Notes under the pieces: generated by a model | The model's database searches: none | What the model was told of the DNA's origin: nothing | What the model saw: only the letters and a program-made list of their open reading frames with translations | Assembly (NCBI RefSeq): GCF_001984095.1 | Contig: NZ_LYVQ01000002.1 | Span: 1 to 64,000 of the forward strand | Source: Pelomonas sp. KK5 | Lineage (GTDB): Bacteria; Pseudomonadota; Gammaproteobacteria; Burkholderiales; Burkholderiaceae_C | Direction of reading: 5' to 3' | Length of the DNA stretch: 64,000 nucleotides | Translations under genes and position numbers: made by a program | Part shown: positions 33,940 to 64,000 of the stretch, one piece after another | Layout of the letters: the number at the start of each line of letters is the position of its first letter | How positions within the stretch are numbered: the first letter of the stretch is position 1

Positions 33940-35841
33940 CTAGACCTTCTGTCGCAGCAGGCCCTGCACGCGCTCGCGCAGCGTCTCGGGGCTGACCTCG
34001 CCGTTGTGCATCGGCGCACCGGCGAGCAACGCGACGCGGCTCTTCAGGCCGCGGCGGAAGGGTCTCACCATCGCCGTGCCATCCTCGACGCGCGAGAAGT
34101 AGGAGCCCCACAGGTTCTGCAGCGCCAGCGGGACCACCGGCACGTCCGCGTGGCCCTCGAGGATCTTCATCACGCCCCCCTTGAAGGGCTGCAGCTCGCC
34201 GTCGCGGGTGATGCCGCCCTCGGGGAAGATGCCCAGCAGCTCGCCGTCGGCCAGCACCGCGCGGGCGCGCTCGAAGGCGGCCTCGTAGACGGCCGGGTCT
34301 TCCTTCTGTGGCGCGATCGGGATCGCCTTGCCGAGCTTGAACAGCCAGCCGAGCACCGGCGTGCGGAAGATGCGGTGGTCCATCAGGAACACGATGGGGC
34401 GCGGGCTGGCGGCCATGATCAGGATCGCGTCCACGAAGCTGACGTGGTTGCACACCAGCAGCGCCGGGCCGCTGAGCGGGATGTGCTCGTCGCCCTGCAC
34501 GCGGAAGCGGTACATGATGCGCGACATGATCAGCGCCACGAAGCGCAGCAGGTATTCCGGCACGATCAGGAAGATGTAGCCGGCCACCACCGCGTTGGCG
34601 ATGCCCACCACCAGGAAGAGCTGCGGGATCGTCAGGCCCGCGCCCAGCAGCGCGCCGGCCAGCACCGAGCTGGCGATCATGAACAGCGCGTTGAGGATGT
34701 TGTTGGCCGCGATGATGCGCGCCCGGTGCGTGGGCTGCGAGCGGATCTGGATCAGCGCGTACATCGGCACGCTGTACAGCCCCGCGAAGCCGGCCAGCAG
34801 GCACAGGTCGGCCAGCACGCGCCAGTGCGCCGACGTGGCGAGGAAGGCATGCAGGCCCATCTGCGGCGTGGCCGGCAGGCCGCGCGAGGCGAAGAACAGG
34901 TCGATCGCGAAGACGCTCATGCCGATCGCACCGAGCGGCACCAGGCCGATCTCCACATGCCGCTTGGACAGCACCTCGCACATCAGCGAGCCGGTGCCGA
35001 TGCCGATCGAGAACACCACGAGCAGCAGCGAGGCGACCTGCTCGTCCCCATGCAGCACCTCCTTGGCGAAGGCCGGGAAGTTGGCGAGGAACACGGCGCC
35101 GAAGAACCACATCCACGAGATGCCCAGCAGCGAGCGGAACACCGCCAGCTGGCCGTGCGCCAGCTTCAGGTTGCGCCAGGTCTCGCTGACCGGGTTCCAG
35201 TTGATCTTCAGCCCCGGGTCGGTGGCCGGCAGGCGCGGGATCGCCTGCGCGACCAGGCGCCCGAGGATCGCAACGCCGACGCAGGCCACCGCCGCATAAC
35301 GCGCTCCCTCGACGGGGATCGCGATCAGCAGGCCGCCCACCACATTGCCCAGCAGGATCGACACGAAGGTGCCCATCTCGACCATGCCGTTGCCGCCGGT
35401 CAGCTCGCGCTCGTTCAGCACCTGGGGCAGGTAGGCGAACTTGACCGGACCGAACAGCGTCGAGTGCAGGCCCATCAGGAACACGCAGCCCAGCAGCACC
35501 GGCACGTTGGCGCTGAGGAAACCCCAGCCGGCCAGCAGCATCACCGCGATCTCGAAGCTCTTGACGAACTGGATCAGCCGGGTCTTGTCCAGCTTGTCGG
35601 CCAGCTGGCCGCTGGTGGCCGAGAACAGCACGAAGGGCAGGATGAACAGCGCACCGATCACCAGGCCCGCCTGCTGCGGCTGCAGCCAGCTGACGCTGAG
35701 CTGGTAGGTCACCATCACCGTGAAGGCGAACTTGAACAGGTTGTCGTTGCCGGCGCCAAGGAACTGGGTCCAGAAGAAGGGCGCGAAGCGGCGCTGGCCG
35801 AGCAGCTGGAACTGGCTGCCGTGCGGGTCTTGCGTGTTCAT
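33940..35841 (-). CDS. MFS transporter (LplT-like) fused to PlsC acyltransferase
   Basis: 633 residues. Residues about 1-415 form a 12-helix MFS domain of the lysophospholipid transporter type (FFWTQFLGAGNDNLFKFAF). Residues about 425-633 are a PlsC acyltransferase with NHVSFVD (HX4D) and FPEGGITRDGEL. This is the arrangement of the Aas/LplT pathway joined in one chain: lysophospholipid uptake followed by re-acylation. Unlike E. coli Aas there is no acyl-ACP synthetase domain. Start at 35841 with AGGAGA upstream; the in-frame extension to 36876 belongs to other genes' shadow. Confidence 0.88.
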   Translation of the reverse strand: MNTQDPHGSQFQLLGQRRFAPFFWTQFLGAGNDNLFKFAFTVMVTYQLSVSWLQPQQAGLVIGALFILPFVLFSATSGQLADKLDKTRLIQFVKSFEIAVMLLAGWGFLSANVPVLLGCVFLMGLHSTLFGPVKFAYLPQVLNERELTGGNGMVEMGTFVSILLGNVVGGLLIAIPVEGARYAAVACVGVAILGRLVAQAIPRLPATDPGLKINWNPVSETWRNLKLAHGQLAVFRSLLGISWMWFFGAVFLANFPAFAKEVLHGDEQVASLLLVVFSIGIGTGSLMCEVLSKRHVEIGLVPLGAIGMSVFAIDLFFASRGLPATPQMGLHAFLATSAHWRVLADLCLLAGFAGLYSVPMYALIQIRSQPTHRARIIAANNILNALFMIASSVLAGALLGAGLTIPQLFLVVGIANAVVAGYIFLIVPEYLLRFVALIMSRIMYRFRVQGDEHIPLSGPALLVCNHVSFVDAILIMAASPRPIVFLMDHRIFRTPVLGWLFKLGKAIPIAPQKEDPAVYEAAFERARAVLADGELLGIFPEGGITRDGELQPFKGGVMKILEGHADVPVVPLALQNLWGSYFSRVEDGTAMVRPFRRGLKSRVALLAGAPMHNGEVSPETLRERVQGLLRQKV

Positions 35842-44021: not shown

Positions 44022-45098
44022 ATGCCCCAACTGTTCGACCCCATCCGCATCGGCGACCTGCAGCTGGCCAACCGCATCGTCATGGCCCCGTTGACGCGCA
44101 GCCGCTCGCGCGGCCTGCTGCCGGGCGACATCGCCGTCGAGTACTACCGCCAGCGCGCCAGCGCCGGCCTGATCGTCAGCGAGGGCACGCAGATCACCGC
44201 CGACGGCCAGGGCTATCTGGACACCCCGGGCATCCACACGCCCGAGCAGATCGCCGCCTGGAAGCGGGTCACTGACGCCGTCCACGCCGAAGGCGGCAAG
44301 ATCGCCGTGCAGCTGTGGCACGTGGGCCGCATCTCGCACGTGAGCTTCCAGCCGGATCGCGCGGCGCCGCTGTCGTCCAGCGACAAGCCGGCCGCCGGCA
44401 AGACCTTCACCGCCGAGGGCTTCGTCGACGTCTCCGCCCCGCGCGCGCTGAAGACCGAGGAACTGCCGGGCGTGGTCGCCTCCTACGTGCACGCGGCGCG
44501 CTGCGCGATGGAAGCCGGCTTCGATGCCGTCGAGGTGCACAGCGCCAACGGCTACCTGCTCGACCAGTTCCTGCGCGACAGCATCAACGACCGCACCGAC
44601 GCCTATGGCGGCTCGATCGAGAACCGCGCGCGCCTGCTGGTCGAGGTGATGACCGCCGTCGCTGCCGAGATCGGCGCCGGCCGCACGGGCCTGCGCCTGT
44701 CGCCGGTCACGCCGTCCAACGACATCGGCCAGGACAGCAACGCGCAGGCACTGTTCGAACACGTGGCACGCCAGCTGGCCCCGCTGAAGCTGGCCTTCCT
44801 GCATGTGGTCGAAGGCCAGACCGGCGGCCCGCGCGACGTGGCCCCGTTCGACTACCAGGCGCTGCGGCGTGCCTTCGCCGGCCCGTACATCGCCAACAAC
44901 GGCTACACCCGCGAGATGGCGATCGGCGCCGTGGCGGATGGCCAGGCGGACATGGTGGCCTTCGGCCGCGCCTACATCGCCAACCCGGACCTGGTGCGCC
45001 GGCTCAAGCTCAACGCGCCGCTGCAGGCGCTGGACCAGGCCACGCTGTACGGTGGCGACGCCAAGGGCTACGTGGACTATCCCGCGTTGGCCGCCTAA
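44022..45098 (+). CDS. alkene reductase, old yellow enzyme family
   Basis: 358 residues. FMN-dependent OYE fold: LFDPIRIGDLQLANRIVMAPLTRSR at the start (diagnostic in part), QLWHVGRISH, active-site His and Asn in EVHSANGYLLDQFLRD, NDRTDAYGGSIENRARL, and GRAYIANPDL near the end. It reduces activated C=C bonds, nitro compounds or quinones with NADPH (NemA/GTN reductase type). Divergent from the beta-helix gene. Start at 44022 with no strong Shine-Dalgarno. Confidence 0.92.
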   Translation: MPQLFDPIRIGDLQLANRIVMAPLTRSRSRGLLPGDIAVEYYRQRASAGLIVSEGTQITADGQGYLDTPGIHTPEQIAAWKRVTDAVHAEGGKIAVQLWHVGRISHVSFQPDRAAPLSSSDKPAAGKTFTAEGFVDVSAPRALKTEELPGVVASYVHAARCAMEAGFDAVEVHSANGYLLDQFLRDSINDRTDAYGGSIENRARLLVEVMTAVAAEIGAGRTGLRLSPVTPSNDIGQDSNAQALFEHVARQLAPLKLAFLHVVEGQTGGPRDVAPFDYQALRRAFAGPYIANNGYTREMAIGAVADGQADMVAFGRAYIANPDLVRRLKLNAPLQALDQATLYGGDAKGYVDYPALAA

Positions 45099-45673
45099 GA
45101 CTTGCCCGCCGTCTTCGCCTTGAAGAGTTCCCGGATGCCCACCTCGCGCGGGCCCGGGATCACTTCGAAGCGCTCGCCGGCGCTGAGCGTCCCGGGACGG
45201 ATCACGCTCAGGTAGAAGCCGCACCAGCCGCTCTGCATCATCAGCTTGGCGGCCTGCTTGAAGCCCATCACCGCGTTGAACTTGAAGCAGGGATAGCGCG
45301 GCTCGCTGACGGCCAGCTCGCAGCCGTTCTCGAAGCGCAGCCGGTCGCCGATCCAGGCATCGATCTCCAGCAGGCCGGACAGGGTCAGGTTCTCGCCCAG
45401 GCTGCCCGCGGGCAAGACCTGGCCCCAGTCGGCGGCGCCGGACTGGGCACGCACCGTCTGCCAGAAGCCGTAGTGCTCGGACGGGTAGGCGTAGACCGCC
45501 TTGGCCAGGCCGCCGTGGACGCTGGGGTCGGCCTGCTCGTCGCCCTCCAGGCCGATCGGCATGACCGCGACGGCGCCCTCGCGCGGCTGCTTGCGGATGC
45601 CACTGGGCACCGTGCCCTGGTCGGTGGGCAGCGGGGCGATGCGGGCGGTATTGAGGCTGAGGAGCTGCGGCAT
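45095..45673 (-). CDS. MOSC domain protein, YiiM type
   Basis: 192 residues. GLEGDEQADPSVHGGLAKAVYAYPSEHYGFW and LPAGSLGENLTLSGL are YiiM-type MOSC blocks, and a Cys in EPRYPCFKF is the probable molybdenum cofactor ligand. YiiM enzymes reduce N-hydroxylated compounds. Start at 45673; the open frame upstream to 45901 runs through the repeated intergenic element and is not used. Its last codons overlap the end of the old yellow enzyme gene by 4 nt. Confidence 0.85.
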   Translation of the reverse strand: MPQLLSLNTARIAPLPTDQGTVPSGIRKQPREGAVAVMPIGLEGDEQADPSVHGGLAKAVYAYPSEHYGFWQTVRAQSGAADWGQVLPAGSLGENLTLSGLLEIDAWIGDRLRFENGCELAVSEPRYPCFKFNAVMGFKQAAKLMMQSGWCGFYLSVIRPGTLSAGERFEVIPGPREVGIRELFKAKTAGKS

Positions 45674-45681
45674 GGACAAGG

Positions 45682-45900
45682 CTGTGGACAGTTCTCGAAC
45701 AAGCGCCCGATTGTCCACACGCCGGCGCGGCCCCTGCGACTTGTTCATTCCGGCTCCCGGTCTTGCCGGCGGCCGATCCACAGCCTTGGCCGCGAGCCAA
45801 GTGCCTGTCAGGCCTGGGAAAAACCAGCTTGCCCACAGAAACCGGCCGCGTCCTATTACAACTACTAAAGATATAAGGAAGATAAGGAGAAAAGAGAACA
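45682..45900 (+). repeat. DnaA-box-like intergenic module, copy A
   Basis: Four sites resembling DnaA boxes: an inverted TGTGGACAG (45683-45691), TTGTCCACA (45711-45719), CGATCCACA (45774-45782) and TTGCCCACA (45829-45837). An A+T-rich tract follows (about 45852-45900, TATTACAACTACTAAAGATA and GAAGATAAGGAGAAAAGAG). The spacing is 29, 62-63 and 55 nt, matching copy B at 51961-52185; the last interval matches B at 38 of 55 positions by hand count. Between boxes 3 and 4 there are small hairpins (CTTGGC/GCCAAG, CTGG/CCAG). TTGTCCACA is one base from the E. coli DnaA box TTATCCACA and is a preferred box in high-GC bacteria. Lies between the divergent MOSC and queD-like genes. Confidence 0.7.
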
Positions 45901-45968
45901 AGACCCGCGGGTGGCATTGCCAAGCGAGGCCATGTCACACTGGCGTGTTCGACCCTCCCCTGTTTCCG

Positions 45969-47081
45969 ATGAATTCCCAGACGACGATCCACAGCGCGTC
46001 CTGCGGCTTTGAATCCGCCTGCCGGATCCCCTCGCTGCCCGCCGCGCACCGCAGCCACCGCCTGCACGGGCACAGCTATTTCGCCACCGTGCGGGCCGCG
46101 CTGCCGGCCGGCTGGGCGCCGTTCCCGGGTGGAGAAGTCGAGGAACTGCGCACCCGGCTGGAGAAGGCCGTGGCGCCGCTGGACTACGCGCTGCTGAACG
46201 AGACCCTGCCCGAGCCGACCGACGAGAACCTCGCCCGCTGGATCCGGCACCGTCTGGAATCGGAGCTGGGCGTCCCCGGCATCCAGCAGGTGGGCATCCA
46301 GAGCACCGGCCATGAGGGCGTGGATCTCGATGCCGAGGGCGTGGCCCATGTCTGGCGTCGCTACCGCTTCCAGGCGGCGCACCAGCTGCCGAACGTGCCG
46401 GCCGGCCACAAGTGCGGCCGCATGCACGGCCATGGCTTCGAGGTGATCATCCATGCCCGCCAGGGCCTGGGCGATGGCGAGGCGATGGCGGTGGACTACG
46501 ACCACCTGGACGAGATGTGGGCGCCGTTCCACATGATGCTGAACTACCAGTGCCTGAACGGCATCGAGGGCCTGGCCAACCCGACCAGCGAGATCATCTC
46601 CTCCTGGCTGTGGGAGCGGCTGAAGCCCCAGCTGCCGGCCCTGTCCTGGATCACCGTGTACGAGACCGGCTCCTGCGGCGCCAACTTCGACGGCGCCAGC
46701 TACCGGATCTGGAAGGAAATGACGCTGGACAGTGCGATCCAACTGAAGCGCGCGCCTGAGGGCAGCCCGCTGCGCGGCATCCACGGCCACACCTACACGC
46801 TGCGCCTGCACCTGAACGCGCCGCTGGACGCGGTGCACGGCTGGACGGTGGACTTCGGTGACGTGAAGACGCTGTTCGATCCGATCTTCAAGGCCATCGA
46901 CCACCGGCCGCTGTACGAGATCGCCGACCTGCCCGACGGCGACACGGCGAGCCTGGCCGGCTGGGTGCTGGCCAAGGGCCGCGCGGTGCTGCCGCAGATC
47001 GACCGGGTGGACATGTACGAGACGCGGGGCTGCGGGTCCATCGTCAGCCTGGCCGCTTCGGAGGAGCTGATTCCGGTATGA
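45969..47081 (+). CDS. triple T-fold 6-carboxytetrahydropterin synthase-like protein (QueD family)
   Basis: 370 residues, about three times the usual 120 of QueD. Domain 1 (about 5-127): C18, S29, H33 and H35 at the Zn/Cys positions, D72-Y73 at the Asp-His position. Domain 2 (about 130-248): complete Zn site H138/H153/H155, nucleophile C149 in GHKCGRMHGH, pterin-holding E232, but F187-H188 for the Asp-His pair. Domain 3 (about 250-370): L268 and I257 where Cys and the first Zn His should be, but intact D311-H312 and E351. In PTPS enzymes Cys comes from one subunit and Asp-His from the next, so domains 2 and 3 may share one composite site. Overlaps queE (ATGA), so it probably makes CPH4 for queuosine. 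Preceded by the DnaA-box-like module. Confidence 0.85.
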   Translation: MNSQTTIHSASCGFESACRIPSLPAAHRSHRLHGHSYFATVRAALPAGWAPFPGGEVEELRTRLEKAVAPLDYALLNETLPEPTDENLARWIRHRLESELGVPGIQQVGIQSTGHEGVDLDAEGVAHVWRRYRFQAAHQLPNVPAGHKCGRMHGHGFEVIIHARQGLGDGEAMAVDYDHLDEMWAPFHMMLNYQCLNGIEGLANPTSEIISSWLWERLKPQLPALSWITVYETGSCGANFDGASYRIWKEMTLDSAIQLKRAPEGSPLRGIHGHTYTLRLHLNAPLDAVHGWTVDFGDVKTLFDPIFKAIDHRPLYEIADLPDGDTASLAGWVLAKGRAVLPQIDRVDMYETRGCGSIVSLAASEELIPV

Positions 47082-47713
47082 GCTACGCAGTCAAGGAAAT
47101 GTTCTATACCTTGCAGGGCGAGGGGGCGCAGGCAGGCCGGGCTTCGGTCTTCTGCCGCTTCGCCGGCTGCAATCTGTGGAACGGGCGCGAGGAGGATCGC
47201 GCTTCAGCCGTCTGCACTTTCTGCGATACGGACTTCGTCGGGACCGACGGGCAGGGTGGCGGCAAGTTCGCCACGGCCGAGGCGCTGGCCGAGGCGATCG
47301 CATCAAAGTGGCCGGCCGGCCCGGGCGGCAAGCCCTATGTCGTCTGCACCGGCGGCGAGCCCTTGCTGCAGTTGGACAAGCCCCTGATCGACGCGCTGCA
47401 CGCCCGCGGCTTCGAGATCGCCGTGGAGACCAATGGCACCCAGCCGGCGCCCGAAGGCCTGGACTGGATCTGCGTCAGCCCCAAGGCGGACAGCGAGATC
47501 GTGCTGACGAAGGGCAACGAGCTGAAGCTGGTCTGGCCGCAGCCGCTGGCCCGGCCGGAGCGCTTCGCCGGGCTGGCGTTCGATCACTTCTTCCTGCAGC
47601 CGATGGACAGCATCCTGAAGGCGCAGCACACGAAGGAGGCGGTGGCCTACTGCATGGAGCATCCGCAGTGGCGCCTCTCGGTGCAGATGCACAAGGTCAT
47701 CGGCATCGACTGA
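47078..47713 (+). CDS. queE: 7-carboxy-7-deazaguanine synthase
   Basis: 211 residues. Radical-SAM protein with the cluster Cys at 31, 46 and 49, i.e. C-x14-C-x2-C, as known for the Burkholderia-type QueE rather than C-x3-C-x2-C. Other blocks: FYTLQGEGAQAGR, VCTGGEPLLQLD, VETNGTQP, and SPKADSEIV. It converts CPH4 to 7-carboxy-7-deazaguanine. Coupled to the queD-like gene. queC and queF are not in the window. Confidence 0.94.
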   Translation: MSYAVKEMFYTLQGEGAQAGRASVFCRFAGCNLWNGREEDRASAVCTFCDTDFVGTDGQGGGKFATAEALAEAIASKWPAGPGGKPYVVCTGGEPLLQLDKPLIDALHARGFEIAVETNGTQPAPEGLDWICVSPKADSEIVLTKGNELKLVWPQPLARPERFAGLAFDHFFLQPMDSILKAQHTKEAVAYCMEHPQWRLSVQMHKVIGID

Positions 47714-47721
47714 GGACGGGG

Positions 47722-48450
47722 CTAACAGCCAAGTTCGACGGCCTGCAGCACGCGGCCGTTCGAGGGGTCGACCGCCACGACCACCAGTCGCCGCGCATGA
47801 CCGGCCTCGGCCGGCGCGAGCTTCACCTGCCAGGACTGCTCCGGCCCGCCCGCCGGGAGCCGCGCGTAGTCGCGCACCACGTCGTCGTGCCTGAGCAGCG
47901 AACCCTGGTTCTCGCCGGCCTTGACCTGCGATTGGTGCCCGTCCTCGACGGCGGCCCACCAGAGCTGGACCTTGGCGGGCGAGCCGCTCAGCGGGCGGAG
48001 ATCGACGCTCACCTTGTCGCCATCGTGGCGCTGCAGGACGAGGGCGACACCGGCTGGCGAGGGGGCAGGTAGTTCGCTGCCGCCATGCCAGTCGCGCCCA
48101 TTGACGATGATCTGCGGTGTGTAGGCGAAGCGTGCGCCGGACCAGGCTTGCGTCTGCTGCTGCCGCTCGGTGTACGCCGGGCTGGCGAAGCGATCCTTCC
48201 AGCCGAGGCGGTCCCAGTAGTCGACATGGAAGGCCGCGGCGATCGCATCGGGCCGCCTGGCCTTGAGCCCGCTGAGCCAGCGGTCAGCCGGCGGGCAGGA
48301 GTTGCAGCCCTCGGAGGTATAGAGCTCCACCAGCGGCGGCACGGTGGGCCCGGAGCGGGCCATGCAGCTCCCTGCATCGGCCTGGGCGAGGCCCAGGTTG
48401 AGCAGCAGCAGGGCGACGGCGACAACAGGCTTGATCTTCGTCTTCATCAT
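47722..48450 (-). CDS. DUF1223 thioredoxin-like exported protein
   Basis: 242 residues. Signal peptide (residues 1-25). Mature part begins VELYTSEGCNSCPPADRWL: a CxxC at C49/C52 in thioredoxin-like context, then FHVDYWDRLGWKDRF and YTPQIIVNG with a cis-Pro-like loop. The DUF1223 family is secreted and has no proven function; a disulfide exchange role is suggested by the fold. Convergent with queE (8-nt gap). Confidence 0.85.
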   Translation of the reverse strand: MMKTKIKPVVAVALLLLNLGLAQADAGSCMARSGPTVPPLVELYTSEGCNSCPPADRWLSGLKARRPDAIAAAFHVDYWDRLGWKDRFASPAYTERQQQTQAWSGARFAYTPQIIVNGRDWHGGSELPAPSPAGVALVLQRHDGDKVSVDLRPLSGSPAKVQLWWAAVEDGHQSQVKAGENQGSLLRHDDVVRDYARLPAGGPEQSWQVKLAPAEAGHARRLVVVAVDPSNGRVLQAVELGC

Positions 48451-48481
48451 GCCTGTGCAGTCGCCGCCACCGGCACCGGCC

Positions 48482-49810
<1,329 letters not shown>

Positions 49811-49896
49811 CGTTATGCGGTCGCCGCCATCATCCCGCCCGTTTCGGCTCAATGCGATGAGGGGAATTGCATAAGTGGAATTGCAGATCCGGCATG

Positions 49897-49922
49897 AAAA
49901 AGGCGCCCCGCGGGGCGCCTTT
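49897..49922 (-). terminator. intrinsic terminator downstream of ompW
   Basis: AAAGGCGCCCCG/CGGGGCGCCTTT, a perfect 12-bp inverted repeat with a run of T on the minus strand (AAAAA on plus, 49897-49901). It ends the leftward ompW transcript. The plus strand has only TTTG, so it works in one direction. Confidence 0.85.
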
Positions 49923-49939
49923 GATCGAGTCGGAAGGCC

Positions 49940-50608
49940 TCAGAAGGCGTAGCCGACACCCAGCTGCACGGCCGTGGGATTGAGCGTGGCGTCGATGGTC
50001 TGGCCGGTCGACAGCTGGCCGGTGGTCTTGATGAAGACCTTCATCACCGAGACGTCGGCGCTCCAGCGGCCGCCCAGGTTGACCGCCAGGCCCAGCTGGG
50101 CGCTGGCGCCGCCGGCGTTCTTCATCGAGAGCGTCGTCGGGTTGGACGGCGTGCCGCCGGTCAGGCCCGACAGCGCGGCGGTGGCCTTGCTGTCGTAGAA
50201 GCGGGCGTAGGTGAAGCCGGCGCCGACGTAGGGGCGGAAGGTGCTCTTGGCCTCGCCGAAGCGGTACTGCGCCAGCAGCGTGACGGGCAGGGACTTGACG
50301 GTGCCCAGCTTGCCGGTGCCGGCGATGGCGCCGGCGCCGACCACGTCATGCTCGAAGGCCGGACCGATCGGCAGGTCGATCGAGATGTTGTCCGTCCACA
50401 TCCAGGTGATGCCGCCGGTGGCGCGGGTGTCCTTGCGGACATCGATCTTGGTGCCGACCAGGCTGGGCGCGCTCAGGTCGCCGCTGTCCACATGCGGCGT
50501 GATCTGCGTGGCGCCCAGGCGCACGATGAAGCTGCCGGCCGTCTGGGCCTGGGCAGCGCCGCAAGCCAGGGCAGCGACGGCGAGGCTGAGAAGAGTCTTC
50601 TTGATCAT
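49940..50608 (-). CDS. ompW: OmpW family outer membrane protein
   Basis: 222 residues. Signal peptide (1-21: ends AAQAQ), then FIVRLGATQITPHVDSGDL, VLIDVRKDT-like strands, DNISIDLPIGPAFEHDV and a final LGVGYAF with the C-terminal Phe used by BAM. An eight-stranded barrel. AGGAGC stands upstream of the ATG. 29 nt after the lipase gene, so the two may be co-transcribed; terminator at 49897-49922. Confidence 0.9.
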   Translation of the reverse strand: MIKKTLLSLAVAALACGAAQAQTAGSFIVRLGATQITPHVDSGDLSAPSLVGTKIDVRKDTRATGGITWMWTDNISIDLPIGPAFEHDVVGAGAIAGTGKLGTVKSLPVTLLAQYRFGEAKSTFRPYVGAGFTYARFYDSKATAALSGLTGGTPSNPTTLSMKNAGGASAQLGLAVNLGGRWSADVSVMKVFIKTTGQLSTGQTIDATLNPTAVQLGVGYAF

Positions 50609-50637
50609 GGGTTCTTGCTCCTAATGTCGCCGCCGGC

Positions 50638-51762
50638 TTACAGCCAGCCCTTGATGGCCAGGCTCTTCGAGATCAGCTGGGAGACCAGCTGGTGGCCGTA
50701 CAGCGTCGGGTGGAAGCTGTCGGAGAAGGCGTAGGTCTGCCACCAGTTGGCACCGCCACTGGCGCCGGTCGGGACATTCGCCGACAGGGACGCGGTGGTG
50801 CAGTGCGGGAAGTCGTAGGTAGGCAGGCCGTCCGAGCCCACGCCGACGGCCGGGCAGGCCGGCGTCGTGGCGTTGGTCAGGCCGAACTGGGCCGGGCTGG
50901 CGACTTCATCGAGGAAGGAGGTGTAGAAGTCGACGACGACGACCTTGGGCTCGCTGGCGAACTTGGCGGCCAGCTCGGTGTTGTAGGCGCCGATCCACTG
51001 GTTGAACAGCGCTTCCAGCTGGGTCGCCACGTCCGCGCCCTTGGCAGCCTTGATGCTGGCCAGGACCATCTGGAACTTGGGCGTCTTGGTGATGGCCGGC
51101 AGGTTCAGGATCACGACCTGGGTCGCGCCCTTGCCCAGCACGTTGGTGGTGACCGAGGCAGCGAGGCGATCGGCCAGCTTGGTCATGTAGGCGCCACCGG
51201 CGGTGCTCAGGCCGGCGGTGTCCAGGCTGGCGGGGGTGACGCCCAGCGAGGCCAGCAGGCCGCGGATGTTGGCAGCAGTCGGGTCGGTGGCGGTGCCCGC
51301 GACCAGGAAGGCGCTGATCAGGTCGGCCGCGTCGTTGCCGCCGCCGTCGATGATGGCCAGGTCGGTGGCGGCGAAGCCGGTGGCGCCAGCCGCGGCGAGC
51401 TGCACGGTCACGTCACGGAAGTCGCCCGGATTGCTGGCGAAGTTGACGCGACCGCCGCCGATCGCGTAGTTGGTGCAGCCGGCGGTCGGGTTCAGCACGA
51501 AGCTGTTGGCGCCGGTGGCCTTGTAGTACGGGCACAGGGTCTTGCCGTAGGCGGCGGCGATGCGCTCGGGGTAGATCTGGCTGTCGCTGGCCTGCAGGGT
51601 GAACTTGTAGCCGTAGGTGCCGGAGTCGGCCAGGCTGTCACCGAAGACCTTGACCGAGCCGACCTGGGCGCGCGGCGTGGTGTCGGCCGAGCTGCCGCCG
51701 CCGCAGGCGACGAGGGCCAGGCTGGTCGCCAGCGCGAGCAGCGTGGATTTGAAATGACGCAT
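50638..51762 (-). CDS. SGNH/GDSL hydrolase lipoprotein
   Basis: 374 residues. Lipobox LALVAC (C20) followed by GGGSSADTT. GDSL block VFGDSLADSG with nucleophile S43, IDGGGND (oxyanion Asn) and a C-terminal SDSFHPTLYGHQ with catalytic Asp-x-x-His. An esterase/lipase anchored to the outer membrane or periplasmic side. Four Cys in the mature part may make disulfides. Upstream, a 460-nt gap separates it from mazG and contains the second DnaA-box-like module. Confidence 0.88.
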   Translation of the reverse strand: MRHFKSTLLALATSLALVACGGGSSADTTPRAQVGSVKVFGDSLADSGTYGYKFTLQASDSQIYPERIAAAYGKTLCPYYKATGANSFVLNPTAGCTNYAIGGGRVNFASNPGDFRDVTVQLAAAGATGFAATDLAIIDGGGNDAADLISAFLVAGTATDPTAANIRGLLASLGVTPASLDTAGLSTAGGAYMTKLADRLAASVTTNVLGKGATQVVILNLPAITKTPKFQMVLASIKAAKGADVATQLEALFNQWIGAYNTELAAKFASEPKVVVVDFYTSFLDEVASPAQFGLTNATTPACPAVGVGSDGLPTYDFPHCTTASLSANVPTGASGGANWWQTYAFSDSFHPTLYGHQLVSQLISKSLAIKGWL

Positions 51763-51960
51763 CGGATGTCTCCTAGAGAGGGTGCTGTCGGGTGAGGGAA
51801 TATTCGATCGAGGTCCCGAACCCTAGCGATCGCTAATGGTGCGAGTGTCTGCGTTTTCGCCCCGCGAAGCAGCACAAGGGCCGCTAGTTTGCACTTGTTT
51901 GTAGCGGCTCGGCGACGGAACGTGTCACCGCCGTGACAAGTCAGCCGCGGCTGGACAAGC
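51763..51960. other. intergenic region upstream of the GDSL lipase gene
   Basis: 198 nt between the lipase start and the repeated module. It is relatively A+T-rich near 51830-51905 (CGATCGCTAATGG, GTTTGCACTTGTTTG) and includes a GTCACCGCCGTGAC inverted repeat (51924-51937, arms GTCAC/GTGAC). It presumably holds the lipase promoter. No gene seen. Confidence 0.4.
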
Positions 51961-52185
51961 TTGTGGAAAAGAAAGGAGCAAGCAGGTGCTTGTCCACAGC
52001 GCGAGCGGCGGGACGGTACTTGTTGTCTGGCCATCCGCATCCAATCCGGGGTCGCGCCCACAGGCTTTGGCGAGGCGCAAGTGACTGTCGGGCTTGAAGA
52101 AAGTCCGCTTGTCCACAGCGAGGCCCGGGCTCCTACAAGTACTACCAATTTATAAAATTGAAATGCATTGAATAAGAAGAAAGCC
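51961..52185 (+). repeat. DnaA-box-like intergenic module, copy B
   Basis: Same layout as copy A at 45682: inverted TGTGGAAAA (51962-51970), TTGTCCACA (51990-51998), GCGCCCACA (52054-52062) and TTGTCCACA (52109-52117), followed by an A+T-rich tract (about 52130-52185, TACTACCAATTTATAAAATT). Spacing 29, 64 and 55 nt. In copy A box 4 reads TTGCCCACA and in B box 3 is the weak one. After the tract both copies also share CACACT with TGGC or TTGCC (45936 and 52211). Lies between the divergent GDSL lipase and mazG-like genes. Confidence 0.7.
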
Positions 52186-52223: not shown

Positions 52224-52574
52224 ATGGACCCGAATTCGCCCACCACTCTGGATATCGCACAACTGCAGCAGCGGCTGCGCGACTTCGCCACCGAGCGGGA
52301 CTGGCAGCCCTTCCTGACGCCCAAGAACCTGGCCATGGCGATGGTGGTGGAAGCGGGCGAGCTGGTGGAGATCTTCCAGTGGATGACGCCGGAGCAGTCG
52401 CTGGCGATTGCCGACGATGCGCCGCGGCACCAGCACCTGGGCGAGGAGATCGCGGACGTGCTGCTGTACCTGATGCAGATCGCCGACCGGGCCGGCGTCG
52501 ACGTGCCTGCCGCCGTGGAACGCAAGCTGGCGATGAATGCGCTGAAGTACCCCGCCGGCCGCCGGCACGGGTAG
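52224..52574 (+). CDS. MazG-like nucleotide pyrophosphohydrolase (RS21-C6/dCTPase type)
   Basis: 116 residues. All-alpha NTP-PPase with the metal-binding pattern VEAGELVEIFQW (E-x2-E) and GEEIADVLLYLMQIAD (E-x3-D). MazG-like enzymes of this size hydrolyse dCTP or modified dNTPs to the monophosphate. Start ATG 52224, after GTG at 52221. Downstream GNAT gene is 97 nt away in the same direction. Confidence 0.88.
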   Translation: MDPNSPTTLDIAQLQQRLRDFATERDWQPFLTPKNLAMAMVVEAGELVEIFQWMTPEQSLAIADDAPRHQHLGEEIADVLLYLMQIADRAGVDVPAAVERKLAMNALKYPAGRRHG

Positions 52575-63666: not shown

Positions 63667-64000
63667 TTACTGTGGCCCGCGCAGGCGGTCGATCAGGCCA
63701 TTGAGCTCGTCCAGCGAGCCGAACTGGATGCTCAGTTCGCCCTGCTCGCCGCGCTTGGTGCGCTTCTTCACATGGATGGCCACCTGGGCTGTCAAAAGAT
63801 CCGACAGTTCCTCTTCGAGCCGCAGCAGGTCGCGGCTCTTGTCGGTCTTCACGCGCAGCAAGGGCGCCTGCCGCCCCGCGCCCTGATGGCGCTGCACCAG
63901 CTTCTCGGCCTCGCGCACGCTGAGCTTCTTCGAGGCGATCTCGGTGGCGGTGGTGATCTGGTGTGCACCATCCAGAGGCAGCAGCGCACGCGCATGGCCC
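63667..64000 (-). CDS. parB: chromosome partitioning protein ParB, C-terminal part
   Basis: The gene enters from the right edge and ends at 63667, 111 codons visible. GHARALLPL, the IASKKLSVREAEKLVQR stretch and the coiled C-terminal dimerisation end (LLRLEEELSDLLTAQVAI, FGSLDELNGLIDRL) fit ParB/Noc. ParB binds parS and loads SMC; parA would be upstream, outside the window. In most bacteria it lies near oriC, so the right end of the window is probably origin-proximal. Confidence 0.9.
   Translation of the reverse strand, partial: GHARALLPLDGAHQITTATEIASKKLSVREAEKLVQRHQGAGRQAPLLRVKTDKSRDLLRLEEELSDLLTAQVAIHVKKRTKRGEQGELSIQFGSLDELNGLIDRLRGPQ

Follow-up and report, generated by a model that had tools for sequence, protein, structure and literature searches.

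The two elements considered here lie in the genome of Pelomonas sp. KK5, in a window of 64,000 nucleotides (positions 1 to 64,000 of the forward strand of contig NZ_LYVQ01000002.1, assembly GCF_001984095.1). They are paralogous intergenic modules of about 220 bp each, A (45683-45900) and B (51962-52182), separated by 6.3 kb, and they are most probably two copies of the chromosomal replication origin (oriC), displaced from dnaA and both kept for DnaA-driven opening. Each module is situated between divergent genes, as had been recognized in the original prediction. The order of elements is common to both copies: an inverted DnaA-box-like site is followed by three direct sites, a G+C-rich gap and an A+T-rich tract. 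The sites were scanned with at most two mismatches to TTATCCACA, and the features are as follows.

45683-45900, plus strand: module A, oriC-like, between the MOSC gene (minus strand) and queD (plus strand)
45683-45691, minus strand: DnaA box 1 of A, inverted, CTGTCCACA (box scan)
45711-45719, plus strand: DnaA box 2 of A, TTGTCCACA (box scan)
45741-45745, plus strand: conserved TTGTT element of A (family consensus)
45774-45782, plus strand: DnaA-box-like site 3 of A, CGATCCACA (box scan)
45829-45837, plus strand: DnaA box 4 of A, TTGCCCACA (box scan)
45838-45849, plus strand: G+C-rich gap of A, from box 4 to the trio tract
45850-45900, plus strand: DnaA-trio-like tract and putative A+T-rich unwinding element of A
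51962-52182, plus strand: module B, oriC-like, between the GDSL esterase gene (minus strand) and the MazG-like gene (plus strand)
51962-51970, minus strand: DnaA box 1 of B, inverted, TTTTCCACA (box scan)
51990-51998, plus strand: DnaA box 2 of B, TTGTCCACA (box scan)
52020-52024, plus strand: conserved TTGTT element of B (alignment of the copies)
52059-52067, plus strand: conserved CACAGGCTT element of B, the third and weakest site (alignment of the copies)
52078-52087, plus strand: conserved CAAGT...TG element of B (alignment of the copies)
52109-52117, plus strand: DnaA box 4 of B, TTGTCCACA (box scan)
52118-52132, plus strand: G+C-rich gap of B, from box 4 to the trio tract
52133-52182, plus strand: DnaA-trio-like tract and putative A+T-rich unwinding element of B, with the lowest G+C of the window

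The description of each module as one inverted and three direct sites holds for A. In B, the third site retains CCCACAG at 52057-52063 and has more than two mismatches to TTATCCACA. Start-to-start distances between successive sites are 28, 63, and 55 nt in A and 28, 64, and 55 nt in B (the third B site being placed by its CACA), so that the last two intervals agree with those first proposed and the first interval is 28 instead of 29 nt. Only five sites of the window have at most one mismatch to TTATCCACA, one of them in A and three in B. The two copies are 57% identical over the aligned core, and their local alignment score of 47 exceeds the maximum of 31 obtained with 295 random window pairs of 245-250 bp, in keeping with their proposed paralogy. 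The gap after the last box is about 12-15 nt long in both copies, and the tracts behind it, with a G+C content of 0.23 and 0.31, are the two lowest 48-mer regions of the 64 kb, which bears out the low-G+C tract noticed at the outset. By reading, three consecutive trios are found in A (GTC CTA TTA) and two in B (CTC CTA).

A profile built from 22 related modules, from which A and B had been left out, matched A (expectation value, E, 3.2e-28) and B (E 9.8e-35) and nothing else in the window, nor anything in the reversed window or in 30 Markov sequences used as controls. A model of 24 modules (A and B included) gave exactly two matches in the whole genome, A and B themselves, and a DNA similarity search of this genome with module B brought up no further copy but only fortuitous stretches of 15-26 bases. 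Neither module matched Rfam at gathering scores. The sole Rfam match of the window, unrelated to the modules, is the Burkholderia small RNA Bcj11 (35053-35174, minus strand, 90.4 bits).

Distribution and conservation of the module

In what follows, genomes, loci, genera and contigs carry labels in G, L, g and C, respectively. The genus-level set consisted of the own genome alone. Further copies were looked for in 299 genomes of the family with the 24-module, sequence-only model (E ≤ 0.001), and the module was found in 280 of them. One copy was present in 193 genomes, two in 78 and three in nine; the resulting figure of 87 genomes with more than one copy is a lower bound because of the strict filters. 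A closer look was taken at 40 genomes, which are not a random sample (38 single-contig genomes, the own genome and G004). All of them contained the module, and 18 had at least two matches at E < 1e-10. In 12 of the 40 the module is located directly 3' of dnaA; the order dnaA-module-dnaN was confirmed by tblastn in ten of these, and the other two (G094 and G189) rest on the distance to dnaA. In the remaining 28 genomes the module is away from dnaA, by about 14 to 600 kb where both share a contig (distances in G267 and G270 were read across record ends, and in the own genome the two are on separate contigs). Beyond the family, an order-wide draw of 120 genomes contained 14 from other families with weak matches of about 20-40 bits; among other-family genomes, three weak tandem matches were seen in G367 (C1, 1853644-1855263) and two in G369 (C5, 371886-372380).

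The internal spacing of the module is near-fixed in relatives. Both outcomes whose failure the original prediction had named as a refutation and that were examined here, additional copies in relatives and a constant distance between boxes, were thus observed. Among 94 distinct copies taken from the fetched loci (at least 40 bits, repeats removed), box 2 and box 3 are 68-70 nt apart in 89, box 3 is followed by box 4 at exactly 49 nt in 85 copies, and the TTGTT element lies exactly 30 nt from box 2 in 83. The inverted box precedes box 2 by 29 nt in 70 copies and by 41 nt in 21, in which a different site may have been taken by the search. The A+T-rich tract has a median G+C content of 0.36; on the top strand the trio tract opens with the two triplets CTACTA in 67 copies, and A occupies all five third positions in 64.

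The twin layout and the neighboring genes

Scanned with the QueD protein, genome contigs yielded 80 loci, a good number of them from distant species or short contigs. The module lies downstream of queD-queE in 19 of the 80, with a MazG-like gene beside it in 18 of these 19, and three of the 19 (L038, L042, and L061) resemble the window in having another copy upstream of queD. In total, the twin layout [ori]-queD-queE-...-[ori]-...-mazG is present in eight genomes of six genera: the window (g1), L038 and L042 (g29), L061/L317 (g127), G021 (g8), G089 and G271 (g76), and G241 (g14). The assignment of L038 and L042 to g29 and of L061 to g127 was made by matching contig coordinates. In both g76 genomes a GDSL gene is placed between the second copy and mazG. 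G271 also has an extra queD-queE pair about 13 kb from dnaA (L240, from 13431), besides the pair between its modules.

Copy A is no more decayed than copy B. When seven A copies and seven B copies were compared among genera (each set without one of two close relatives), the motif columns were 84% identical in A and 83% in B, and this equal conservation would argue for the use of both copies. In a tree of 31 copies a single A clade was not resolved, and A required six changes; a single shared duplication is therefore not shown by the tree, and it is favored by the conserved gene order. The A copies of genus g29 group together, as do its B copies; the two thus evolve separately and yet both are kept. 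Concerted evolution of A and B is not favored by this grouping, although a spacer identity of 0.47 within genomes (A-B), slightly higher than the 0.42 for A-A and 0.39 for B-B between genera, leaves room for some.

The genes around the modules, with the family on which each name rests, are the following.

45095-45673, minus strand: MOSC-domain protein, left neighbor of A (PF03473)
45969-47081, plus strand: queD-like PTPS protein, right neighbor of A (PF01242)
47078-47713, plus strand: queE-like radical SAM protein (PF04055; named queE from its place beside queD)
50638-51762, minus strand: GDSL esterase, left neighbor of B (PF00657)
52224-52574, plus strand: MazG-like protein, right neighbor of B (PF12643)
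63667-64000, minus strand: parB, whose frame extends to 64578 of contig C2

The window does end in parB, as its frame (contig 63667-64578, minus strand) runs across the last position. It is followed on C2 by parA, rsmG, and mnmG and by two sites (68165 and 69254) that we take to be parS-like, all beyond the window; ParB, ParA, RsmG, MnmG, and the parS-like sites are thus about 11 to 25 kb from the modules on the same contig. A perfect TTATCCACA is found just upstream of mnmG (L031 10742-10750; C2 70741-70749). The observation that neither module is near dnaA also holds: dnaA is on another contig, and the gap between dnaA and dnaN is 90 bp long and contains no module. The dnaA locus has box-like sites of its own. 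Two TTGTCCACA sites 21 bp apart lie within an rnpA-like frame near dnaA (L030 4611-4640, own contig C72). Among 15 loci scanned, a pair of TTTTCCACA (minus strand) and TTATCCACA (plus strand), 60 bp apart, stands beside dnaA in all 14 with rpmH, and further box-like sites occur 270-365 nt past the start of rpmH in 13 of the 14. In relatives the latter are found in 12 of 13 loci, the 13th ending before that stretch; these positions are given as distances from the rpmH start.

The modules as a probable chromosomal origin

Of the readings in the original prediction, that of a replication origin is the one supported, and its main argument lies in homology: because the same module is located between dnaA and dnaN in relatives, with equal spacing, it would be the oriC of the family. 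The copies in the window are made up, at the sequence level, as an origin is: clusters of DnaA boxes in intergenic DNA, and an A+T-rich tract next to a DnaA box. An independent test, in which two of five relatives placed the origin at the modules, was made by GC-skew step fits (20 sampled stretches per genome; 300 bootstraps of module versus dnaA). In the twin genome G271 the best origin was at 100-105 kb, the modules being at 97-101 kb and dnaA at about 0.6-1 kb, and the module fitted better in 293 of 300 bootstraps. In G004, another twin genome, the best origin (530-535 kb) coincided with the modules (531-535 kb), dnaA being at 1127 kb, and the module was better in all 300. The skew origin was thus on the modules or within 5 kb of them in two of the three twin genomes tested. 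Taken as a whole, it is very likely that the module locus is the origin of this bacterium, and likely that both copies are able to open.

The host, which appears to be a Roseateles-like member of the Burkholderiales, would then have an origin that is no longer at the dnaA-dnaN place which it occupies in other genera of the family, and that now resides near the parAB-rsmG-mnmG/parS segment. A possible view of such a move is offered by G285, in which one copy is still between dnaA and dnaN and the second, inverted, lies next to ParA-RsmG-MnmG and parS-like sites at a distance of 28.7 kb (L303 5451-5660 and L304 6118-6338 are its two modules). This arrangement resembles a stage in a relocation through duplication and subsequent loss. 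Each copy in the window appears to hold what DnaA needs for opening, that is, spaced boxes, a G+C-rich gap, a trio-like tract and an A+T-rich unwinding element. DnaA would occupy the boxes and, from the last of them, extend onto the trio tract, and the A+T-rich stretch would be opened for helicase loading. At least one copy would be a working origin; since both seem to be kept by selection, opening is probably possible at either or at both, and if it took place at both, 6.3 kb apart, the two would act as one origin locus.

Several results weigh against this reading. No module match was obtained at E ≤ 0.001 in 19 of the 299 family genomes, although ten of these 19 are less than 90% complete or more than 5% contaminated. 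The strict published form of the basal unwinding system (BUS), in which a DnaA box with at most two mismatches lies no more than 16 nt from a run of three or more 3'-NAN-5' trios, is seen in 35 of the 94 copies. The contrast between the motif columns and the spacers, which are 44% identical in A and 39% in B, is partly built in because the columns were picked as conserved. As for the skew, the best position in the third twin genome, G086, was off the modules (260-285 kb, with the modules at 395-399 kb and dnaA at 135 kb), the module still fitting better than dnaA in 256 of 300 bootstraps. In two genomes with one module the best positions were also off it, at 820-825 kb in G243 and 420-505 kb in G005, and the module was preferred to dnaA in 169 and 137 of 300 bootstraps, respectively. 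The window's own contig has a weak skew change, and the skew at third codon positions, calculated so as to cancel the influence of the coding strand, was too noisy for use.

Among the alternatives, the one that survives best is a bipartite origin, in which DnaA bound at A and B would loop out the 6 kb between them and open only one. The stable pairing of the copies in the same orientation around queD-queE in the eight genomes speaks for it, and looping between two parts of oriC has been described for Helicobacter pylori and Bacillus subtilis (PMC8235120). On the other hand, the known split origins have the unwinding element in only one part (PMC4285127) and are usually divided by dnaA, whereas here both clusters have an A+T-rich element and dnaA is elsewhere. 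Moreover, copies can be as close as about 0.3 kb (G187) or as far apart as about 29 kb (G285), the pairs of G285 and G172 are inverted, and 193 of the 299 family genomes have a single match. We regard a bipartite origin as rather unlikely. The two copies of G172 (C1, 2591188-2591694) are adjacent to each other.

It has also been considered, in line with the titration sites evoked in the original prediction, that a single copy works as the origin, while the other has turned into a site that stores DnaA or sets timing, in the manner of datA or DARS. Both copies contain DnaA boxes, and A has fewer close ones than B (one versus three with at most one mismatch). A titration site needs neither a trio tract nor an A+T-rich element, but both are kept in A as they are in B, and the spacing is that of a full origin. 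To our knowledge, datA and DARS have no unwinding element, whereas the modules carry the A+T-rich one. Such a role is unlikely for one of the two copies, and the datA/DARS reading of the modules is not favored. More doubtful still is that the second copy was left over when the origin moved and is now decaying: the state of G285 could be taken for a stage of that process, but both copies are found around queD-queE in six genera with equal conservation of their motifs. Finally, that the true origin is at dnaA-rpmH-rnpA and the modules are sites regulating queD/mazG, or sites of some other regulator, is scarcely credible: in spite of the boxes at that locus (the pair in 14 of 14 rpmH loci and further ones in 13 of 14) and of a skew that does not decide between module and dnaA in G243 and G005, a module of the same anatomy lies between dnaA and dnaN in other genera, the skew prefers the modules in G271, in G004 and, to a lesser degree, in G086, and the own dnaA-dnaN gap is without a module. 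The shared regulation of flanking genes, put forward with the first description, was set aside as not favored on the ground that the neighbors of the module change while the module itself does not.

Relation to known systems and significance

The modules are similar to the BUS origin (Pelliciari et al., 2021, PMC8287927) in the succession of a box, a G+C-rich gap of about 12-15 nt, a trio-like tract and an A+T-rich stretch. Unlike it, their trio tract is often degenerate, the two triplets near the box being mostly kept and the later ones following a period of three, and two whole copies are present on one chromosome, away from dnaA. The bipartite origins of H. pylori and B. subtilis (PMC4285127, PMC8235120) likewise consist of two nearby clusters of DnaA boxes on one chromosome; however, their parts flank dnaA and the unwinding element is in one of them, whereas the modules are both complete, paralogous and far from dnaA. 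The sites datA, DARS1, and DARS2 of Escherichia coli (PMC5010248) are, like the modules, non-coding and away from dnaA, and they modulate DnaA activity.

An origin away from dnaA has already been hinted at in the Burkholderiales. In chromosome 1 of Cupriavidus metallidurans CH34, the skew switch is about 90 kb from dnaA, by a 213-nt cluster with three perfect DnaA boxes, and a further cluster upstream, with four one-mismatch boxes within 65 nt, is about 130 kb off (PMC2864759). The likeness to the modules is one of description, a box cluster at a skew switch away from dnaA, and the passage on it names no shared module. In Burkholderia cenocepacia the exact origin has been called unclear (PMC4948915). 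With respect to double origins, a few putative cases on one bacterial chromosome have been listed, including Ralstonia pickettii (Gao, 2015, PMC4403523); these are single genomes, the R. pickettii pair is 291 kb apart (at dnaA and hemE), and no conserved paralogous pair is among them. A Vibrio cholerae strain with two functional origins is cited in Ori-Finder 2022. No report of oriC modules conserved as a pair in this family was found in the literature, as judged from titles and the openings of abstracts, with most subscription journals outside the coverage.

Bacterial chromosomes as a rule have one origin, and the function of natural exceptions has been called an open question (Gao, 2015). 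The modules would be a conserved natural exception, with two or three copies of a complete origin module retained in different genera. It is possible, and proposed here tentatively, that this large family regularly carries two or three complete and independently competent DnaA-dependent origins on a single chromosome, that duplication moved the origin from dnaA to the par region, and that both copies fire in living cells of the twin clade. In practice, the profile finds the likely oriC in most of the family genomes searched (280 of 299), and dnaA alone as a guide to the origin would often lead elsewhere, as in 28 of the 40 genomes looked at closely. The hosts are environmental bacteria, several of them in culture, and the system could be used to examine directly whether two origins share DnaA or compete for it, and how an origin can leave dnaA.

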